This document shows positions 3,497-6,400 of a stretch of DNA of 11,800 bases, piece by piece (position 1 is the stretch's first letter; every line of letters starts with the position of its first letter). The notes beneath the pieces are model-generated. The model was not told the DNA's origin, ran no database searches, and was given only the letters and a program-made list of their open reading frames with translations. The DNA is from a bacterium. Lineage in GTDB: Bacteria > CG2-30-53-67 > CG2-30-70-394. The stretch is taken from contig JAJRSX010000115.1 in NCBI GenBank assembly GCA_024278555.1, forward strand, positions 1 to 11,800, in the 5' to 3' direction. Position numbers and translations under genes: made by a program.

Positions 3497-6400
3497 TTAC
3501 CGGAAGTCGCGGCTGCGCGCCGTGGCCACCGGGCGGCTCAGGTTGGGCTGCCAGAGGCGGTCGGCGATCAGGTGGACGACCCCTCCCTCCCGTTCGATGC
3601 GGCCGCTTACCGCCAGGAGCGGGGCGGTGCGGATTGTCTCCGCGTAGCGGTCGAAGGTGCGGCCCCATACCACCACGTTCACCAGGCCGGTCTCGTCCTC
3701 CAGGGTCATGAAGCAGGTGCCCGAGGCGTTGGCCGGGCGCTGGCGGCAGAGGACCGCGCCGACGTAACGCAGCCGTGTCCCGTTTGTGGCCGCGGCCACG
3801 GTGTGGGCGTCGACGATCCCCTGCCCGGCGAGCTGTGGCCGGAGCGGCCCGAGGGGGTGGCCGTGGGTGGAGCATCGGGTGGAGCGGTAGTCCCAGTCGA
3901 TCTGCTCGAAGGGGTCGAGGGGGGCGAAGGGGGGGGCGTCCGCCTCGGCGAGGGGCAGGGGCGTCGCCGCGCTGGCCACCTGCCACACCGCGGTGCGGCG
4001 GCCCTCCTCGAAGGGAGCCAGGGCGCCGGCCTCGGCGAGGCGCTCCAGGGTGGTGCGGGGGAGGCGGGCGGCGCGCATGAAGGCGTCGAGGGTGGGGGCG
4101 GTGGCGGCGGCAACGATCCGCTCCCCCTCGCCGCGTGAGAGGCCGGCCACGGTCCGCAGGCCGAGGCGCACCGTGAAGGGCTGGGCCGCCTCCCTCGCCG
4201 CATTGGGGTCAGGCTTGCAAACTTGCAAGTTTGGACCTCGCTGTTGGCCCTCAACGGGCAAACTTGCAAGTTTGCAAGCCTGACCCCGGAGGGGCTCCTG
4301 ACCCCGGAGGGGCTCCATCGTGCACTCCCATTGGCTGGCGCCCATGGCCACCGGGCGGACCTCCACGCCGTGGCACTTGGCGTCGTCGAGGATCGTGGAG
4401 ACCGGGTAGAAGCCCATGGGCTGGGCGTTCAGGAGGGCGCAGGTGAACTCCGCCGGAAAGTGGCGCTTGAGGTAGGCGGTGGCGTAGGCGATCAGGGCGA
4501 AGCTTGCCGCGTGGCTCTCGGGGAAGCCGTACTCGCCGAAGCCGCGGATCTGCTCGAAGACCGCCTCGGCAAAGGCGCGGTCGATCCCCTTGGCCACCAT
4601 CCGGCCGATCAACCGCTGCCGGTGGCCCTCGATGGCGCCGGTGTGCTTCCACGCCCCCATGTCGCGGCGGAGCTGGTCCGCCTCGCCCGGGGTGTAGTCG
4701 GCGGCGACCACCGCCAGGCGCATCACCTGCTCCTGGAAGAGGGGGATGCCGAGGGTGCGGGCCAGGACCGGCGCCAGCGACGGGTGGGGATAGGTGACCG
4801 GCTCGGCGCCGTCGCGCCTTCGCAGGTAGGGGTGGACCATGTGGCCGGAGATCGGCCCCGGGCGCACCAGGGCGACCTCGACCACCAGGTCGTAAAAGCT
4901 CCGCGGCCGCAGGCGCGGGAGCATCGCCATCTGCGCCCGGCTCTCGATCTGGAAGACCCCCACCGTGTCGCCGCGAGAGGCCATCTCGAAGGTGGACGCG
5001 TCCGCCGGCGGGATCGTCGCCATCTCCAGGTCGATCCCGCGGTGGGCCTTCAGTAGCCGGAAGCAGAGGTCGAGGTGGGTCAGCGCCCCGAGGGCGAGGA
5101 GGTCGACCTTGAAGAGGCCCAGGGCCTCGACGTCGTACTTGTCCCACTGGACCACCGTGCGGCCCGCCATGGTCGCCGGCTCGATCGGCACCACCTCGCT
5201 CACCGGCGCCGCCCCGAGGAGGAAGCCGCCTGGGTGGATGGAGAGGTGGCGGGGGAAGTCGAGGAGGCCGTTGGCGAGGGCCACGAGGTGGCGCGCCGCC
5301 GGCGCCTCTATCTCCAGCCCGGCCGCGGCCATTGCCTCGCGCCCCACCTCGCCGTGGCGGTGGAGGCGGCGGGCGAGGCCATCAACCACGGTGGCCGGCA
5401 GCCCCAGGACGCCGCCCACGTCGCGCACCGCCGAGCGCGGCCGATAGCGCACCACGTTCGCCACCATCGCCGCCCGGTCGCGGCCGAAGCGGGCGTAGAG
5501 GTGCTGGATCACCTCCTCCCGCCGGTGGTGCTGGATGTCGAGGTCGATGTCCGGCGGCTCGGCCCGCTCCCTGGAGAGGAATCGCTCGAAGAGCAGCTCC
5601 ATGCGCACCGGGTCGATGGCGGTGATCCCGAGGCAGAAGCAGACCGCCGAGTTCGCCGCCGAGCCGCGCCCCTGGCAGAGGATCGACCGGTCGCGGCAAA
5701 ACTCCACGATCTCCTTCATGGTGAGGAAGTAGCCGCCGTAGCCGAGCTCGTCGATGAGCTTCAGCTCCCGGTCGACCTGGCGGCGCACCGCCGCCGGGAT
5801 CCGGCCGCCGTAGCGGTGGCGGGCCCCGGCGAGGGTGAGCGCCCGCAGCCGCGCCATCCCCCCCTGCTCCACCGGGTAGCGGTAGTCGAGGTCGGACAGG
5901 GTGAAGCCGCACCGCTCCGCCACCTCTACCGTCCGCGCCACCGCCGCCGGATCGTCGTGAAAGAGGGTGGCGAACCGGTCGGCGTCGCGCAGGTGGTGCT
6001 CGCCGTTCGGGCGCAGGAGACGGCCGGCGGCGGCGAGGCCCACCCGGTGGCGGATGCAGGTGAGCACATCCTGCAGGGGCCGGCCGCCCCGGCGGGGGTA
6101 GAGGACCTCGGTGGCCGCCACCACCCCCATGCCGTAGCGGTTCGCCCGCCGCCGGATCCGCGCCTCCGCCGCCCCCTCCCCCGCCTCCAGGTGGCGCGCC
6201 ACCAGCGCGTAGAGGCGGTCACCAAAGGCGTCGCGCAGCATACCGGCCACCGGTGCCACCGCCGTGGCCGCGGCCAGGCGGCTCGGCGCTCCGCCCCAGA
6301 GGCACAGGAGCCCCCCGGCGTGGGCCGCCACCGCCTCCCACCCGACCCGCGATACCCCCTTCTTGGCCGCGCCACCGTGGCCAAGGGTGAGGAGGCGGCA

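Follow-up and report, generated by a model that had tools for sequence, protein, structure and literature searches.

An 83-bp palindromic element that elsewhere lies between genes is predicted to be translated in frame within the gene for the error-prone DNA polymerase DnaE2 of this bacterium. We consider it probable that the element is a non-autonomous, TIRYT-derived palindrome that inserted into a permissive turn of the protein, and that its retention there needs no function. The window (11,800 bp) is the whole of one contig (C86) in a genome assembly of 3.06 Mb and 211 contigs.

An intact DnaE2 with a palindrome in its reading frame

The host gene, dnaE2 (imuC; 3497..6664, minus strand), is open throughout its 1,055 codons and keeps the conserved polymerase motifs. 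Its product scored 1246.7 bits against the NCBIfam error-prone polymerase model NF004225 (cut-off 939). On the same strand lie an imuB-like Y-family polymerase homologue (6661..8097; Pfam IMS and IMS_C, with Pol IV models below cut-off), an imuA-like, RecA-related gene (8075..8764; identified by a weak RecA match and its cassette position) and lexA (8761..9387; TIGR00498, 163.9 bits, over cut-off). The model match and the lexA-imuA-imuB-dnaE2 cassette together identify the protein as DnaE2/ImuC, and bear out the initial annotation, which had read the gene as an intact dnaE2 within a mutagenesis cassette.

The palindrome (4205..4287, unstranded) consists of two 29-nt arms (4205–4233 and 4259–4287) with 100% complementarity, separated by a 25-nt spacer; as single-stranded DNA it was predicted to fold at −39.4 kcal/mol (z = −10.6 against shuffles). 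Read on the minus strand it encodes DnaE2 residues 793–820, RGQACKLASLPVEGQQRGPNLQVCKPDP, and tryptic peptides of the predicted product include LASLPVEGQQR and GPNLQVCKPDPNAAR. A second copy (11167..11249, unstranded) is 95% identical to the first, is inverted, as seen in its spacer, and sits between two genes with heptamer stutters on both sides, as expected from the earlier description of an inverted repeat that is genic here and intergenic elsewhere. The window also holds intergenic inverted repeats at 1169–1302 (GGGATGGGGGGTGAGGGATGG...) and 3285–3371 (GGAACACGAAACCACGAAAG...), apparently of different types. An Rfam scan of the window gave no match.

Insertion footprint

An 18-bp sequence, TGACCCCGGAGGGGCTCC, occurs twice in exact tandem (4281–4298 and 4299–4316) and encodes EPLRGQ twice. 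Each unit comprises the terminal heptamer of the element (7 bases) and 11 bp of dnaE2 flank, and dnaE2 itself was therefore the insertion target. The palindrome is 83 bp, as first described, but the insertion is larger than that, since the 18-bp duplication and at least one further flanking base pair came in with it. The number 83 is not divisible by three, and 83 + 18 bp alone would shift the frame; the frame is kept under a parse of 102 bp (one extra base pair) or, by reading the sequence, of 105 bp (a four-base right flank), either of which leaves a loop of 11–12 aa. Each strand of the element has two open frames out of three. The exact target and ends of the insertion are uncertain because flanks differ among copies.

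The insert maps to a predicted beta-hairpin turn

We aligned 83 loci encoding DnaE2 relatives and took loop lengths from 82 of them, the remaining one being a fragment. Between CTMEP and VRLGLR the present protein has 46 aa (residues 786–831; 4172..4309, minus strand), compared with a median of 9 aa for the segment from CT(L/M)EP to (V/M)RxGLR across the 82. The in-frame loop that had been placed just before VRLGLR was thus recovered, and a segment carried by all orthologues was sought in the alignment and not found. At least 15 extra residues were present at this site in 15 of the 82 sequences, the present one included, whereas the internal site that ranks second in variability has 7. Because the assembly of the congener (G001) breaks off inside dnaE2, the closest empty loops come from proteins of about 60% identity.

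An AlphaFold2 model of DnaE2 (51-sequence alignment; mean pLDDT 86.4, pTM 0.84) has residues 792–825 as its sole segment with pLDDT below 50, flanked by strands at 782–785 and 830–833. When aligned to Thermus Pol III alpha chains of known structure (3e0d and 2hpi), the site corresponds to a tight turn before GLSAVKNVG. The inserted residues are thus predicted to form a disordered loop in a beta-hairpin turn just before the first helix-hairpin-helix.

A dispersed family largely excluded from genes

A genome-wide search recovered the element more often than chance would allow, with about 22 related copies of 42–90 bp among the matches listed; at most about 40 candidates were scored per genome, and further copies may exist. 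Copies took the form of the 83-bp element, a 90-bp version with extra bases in one arm, or bare 42-bp perfect palindromes. The 83-bp copies were mostly 94–99% identical to that in dnaE2, and the ends were GGGGTCA...TGACCCC throughout.

Only one of the 22 listed copies, that in dnaE2, lay within a predicted gene, as assigned by a simple home-made gene caller based on codon usage. The family is strongly excluded from genes, with dnaE2 the exception, because no more than one of 22 copies is genic although 79% of the surveyed regions is coding (coding fraction 0.79; P(≤1 of 22 in genes) = 9e-14). Copies on contigs C166, C116 and C13 were considered as further in-gene cases and rejected: long frames span them, yet codon-usage calls place them between genes.

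Repeats of flank plus GGGGTCA were found at 15 of the 22 copies, amounting to 26 heptamers against 0.3 expected, and never in the opposite sense. This pattern is common to the dnaE2 copy and the others, which argues that the dnaE2 copy is a genuine family member that arrived and not an old segment of the gene. In these stutter arrays the extra heptamers lie outward of the copy, and most are accompanied by a stretch of host flank (4–11 bp) that has been copied again; within the window they occur at 4281–4316 and 11150–11275. On C171, C49 and the C185 transposon, nested partial ends of 7, 13 and 24 nt share the same flank. The arrays look like the signature of an insertion or slippage mechanism.

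A second group of elements (loci L126, L127, L128, L129, L130, L131, L132 and L134) has only the first ~24 nt in common (GGGGTCAGGCTTGCAAACTTGCAA); after this the sequence runs on as TATCATGCAGAACGCTCTGAAA..., so that these elements are one-ended and then repeat-like. Among 60 relatives searched for the 83-bp element, only weak ends were found, in the congener G001. The end sequence, sought as a text string in open-licence literature, gave chance matches only.

A putative TIRYT source for the element

A relative of ~1 kb on another contig (C170:19262-20288; locus L133) shares its ends, GGGGTCAGGCTTGCAA, with the 83-bp element and carries a Y1 transposase between them. In full, its ends are GGGGTCAGGCTTGCAAACTTGCAA (24 nt) and a shorter inverted partner, CTTGCAAGCCTGACCCC. 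The transposase (319 aa) matches Y1_Tnp (E 3.5e-11), has an HUH-type HLH motif in MPNHLHLVVQ and bears a C-terminal helix-turn-helix (HTH; Bac_DnaA_C, 38.6 bits, residues 226–288).

Many inverted ends of TIRYTs are described as carrying GGGGWSAS (PMC3733652), and subclass 2.1 of TnpA_REP, for which a C-terminal HTH of the Bac_DnaA_C, HTH_23 or HTH_28 type is a criterion, is equated with these TIRYTs in PMC6006769. The present family has all three corresponding features: inverted GGGGWSAS ends, with GGGGTCAG at each end in the copies as in the C170 element; an IS200-like Y1_Tnp transposase with HUH motif between inverted ends; and the C-terminal HTH. Because its ends are common to the copies and to the transposase-bearing element, we suggest that the 83-bp element is best read as a short, non-autonomous inverted dimer of terminal inverted repeats (TIRs), MITE-like, of the C170 TIRYT family. 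It resembles TIRYTs/TIRtrons as described in those two papers in its ends, in a Y1/HUH transposase with a DnaA-C-type C-terminal HTH, and in TIRs that are dispersed and partly dimeric. It differs in that a TIR dimer sits inside a protein gene, and in the flank-plus-heptamer stutters at most copies, which seem not to be among the features described in PMC3733652 and PMC6006769.

Two more Y1 genes are present in the genome, on C185 (L140; ends GGGGTCAGGTCTT) and C70 (L141; ends GGGGACAGGACCC). Each of the three, that on C170 included, is accompanied by inverted GGGG(T/A)CAGG ends and by hairpin repeats of its own; a further Y1 gene, on C27, is without such ends. In G001, a gene resembling that of the C170 TIRYT (L143) has next to it a divergent form of the end, CAACTTGCAAGTTTGCAGGACTGACCCC, and the transposase and its ends look as though they evolve in step; this is at most consistent with a transposase that moves short elements in trans.

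The initial annotation had likened the element to Rickettsia palindromic elements (RPEs). RPEs are found in many genes. The likeness holds for the outcome, a short, palindromic, mobile-like repeat retained in frame within a protein, but not for the class: the lineage differs, one copy in 22 is genic where RPEs occur in frame in many different genes, and the ends and transposase, judged by sequence, fit the TIRYT/GGGGWSAS class better. REPINs and other REP-RAYT systems are similar in having two hairpin-forming units in inverted order, tied to a Y1 RAYT-related transposase, whereas the present element is without the GTAG guide and its ends are long palindromic TIRs. Membership of the GTAG or CGTC REPs was likewise rejected, there being no unpaired GTAG or CGTC tag and GGGGTCA...TGACCCC ends in all copies.

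Unrelated repeats in the same DnaE2 loop

We compared the long loops of other species one by one with the genome from which each came. In an Acidobacteriota metagenome-assembled genome (CP070706.1, one chromosome contig), a palindromic repeat of ~85 bp, in which a GTAG-tagged hairpin is visible, occurs in at least 40 copies, mostly 89–95% identical, and the loop is one of them. The 40 regions fetched from this genome held ~49 copies, and none but the dnaE2 copy fell within a predicted gene. A Hydrogenedentota loop (L156) contains two or three pieces with at least 40 matches in its own genome; four Hydrogenedentota loops have one motif in common. The loop of a Vicinamibacterales chromosome (L157) is a degenerate repeat of ~90 bp (~40 matches among the matches listed), that of L158 a short dispersed repeat, and that of a deltaproteobacterium (L187) consists of tandem-type repeats also dispersed in the genome. 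The L187 dnaE2 carries a second in-frame insertion of the same CTACAGC-type repeat elsewhere in the gene (L187:1200-1229). The loop of L202 gave a weak dispersed-repeat signal. The long loop of L150, searched in its own genome, is not a repeat, and so not all long loops arise via repeats.

The repeats of the present genome and of L146, L156, L157, L158 and L187 have no mutual similarity and form six sequence groups. Because these groups are unrelated, the sequences point to at least six independent acquisitions in one turn. The result is that long loops here are often repeats, and it gives no rate per genome, because the loci were chosen for having long loops.

Discussion

How the element came to be kept can be accounted for as follows. 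A Y1/HUH transposase acting in trans would have cut and joined the 83-bp element, with single-stranded DNA at a replication fork as the probable substrate. The insertion may have survived in dnaE2 because its net length is divisible by three and most frames of the element are open, and because it fell in the beta-hairpin turn before the first helix-hairpin-helix of a C-family polymerase, where the extra residues would form a disordered loop. The same turn has accommodated no fewer than five further unrelated dispersed repeats in other lineages, which marks it as a generally permissive site, at which retention needs no function. Neutral tolerance in a flexible turn of an accessory, inducible polymerase is, in our judgement, the most likely explanation.

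Selection of the inserts is an unlikely alternative, in which extra disordered residues at the entrance to the helix-hairpin-helix would alter how active DnaE2 is, or how it contacts DNA, the clamp or ImuB, and so tune mutagenesis. One loop is used repeatedly by unrelated repeats, dnaE2 is the sole interrupted gene found among the copies listed in two genomes (the present one and CP070706.1), and repair genes are described as often the only REP-tagged ones (PMC3733652). The insert peptides, however, have no sequence in common, most orthologues are without an insert, the present insert is predicted to be disordered, and permissiveness accounts equally well for the site. Selection for function is possible, with recurrence as its one support. 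A broader version, that the turn before the first helix-hairpin-helix is a multi-phylum hot spot recruiting translated intergenic repeats that are selected as modulators of the mutasome polymerase, is a speculative and rather unlikely proposal.

The hairpin might instead act in the dnaE2 mRNA, limiting the mutagenic polymerase through ribosome pausing or changed mRNA stability at a domain boundary. We think this quite improbable: the element folds very stably and several other inserts are also palindromic, but some (L187 and L158) consist of tandem repeats that lack a long hairpin, and a permissive turn better explains so precise a position at the protein level. Hardly any weight attaches to mis-assembly of a repeat into dnaE2, or to a dying gene. 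The assembly is fragmented into 211 contigs, several of which end at element copies; against this, dnaE2 sequence continues in frame on either side, the 18-bp duplication is specific to the dnaE2 flank, conserved motifs are intact over 1,055 aa, and there are parallel cases in other genomes, CP070706.1 being a single chromosome contig.

Neutral tolerance of a TIRYT derivative, the reading we prefer, adds to an earlier record. GTAG and CGTC REPs have been described inside DnaE2 and other DNA repair genes, often as the sole tagged gene of a genome (Di Nocera et al. 2013, PMC3733652), so the phenomenon itself is not new. A mutator role of the REP-tagged proteins was proposed there as speculation, and, recB aside, insertions within one functional category were reported at different sites (PMC3733652). 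Like those repeats, the present one is palindromic and translated in an error-prone polymerase gene; unlike their differing sites, one DnaE2 loop recurs here. What the present case adds is a different class of repeat and, above all, the common site. One beta-hairpin turn of DnaE2 as a recurrent landing place seems to be new, as judged from open-licence literature, and earlier notice is possible.

The insertion in dnaE2 represents new protein sequence gained by a bacterial polymerase from a transposon-like palindrome, with the transposase class of the element identified. With one exact DnaE2 loop used by at least six unrelated repeat families, the 2013 remark on REP-tagged repair genes becomes a question that can be tested, of passive tolerance versus the tuning of mutagenesis.
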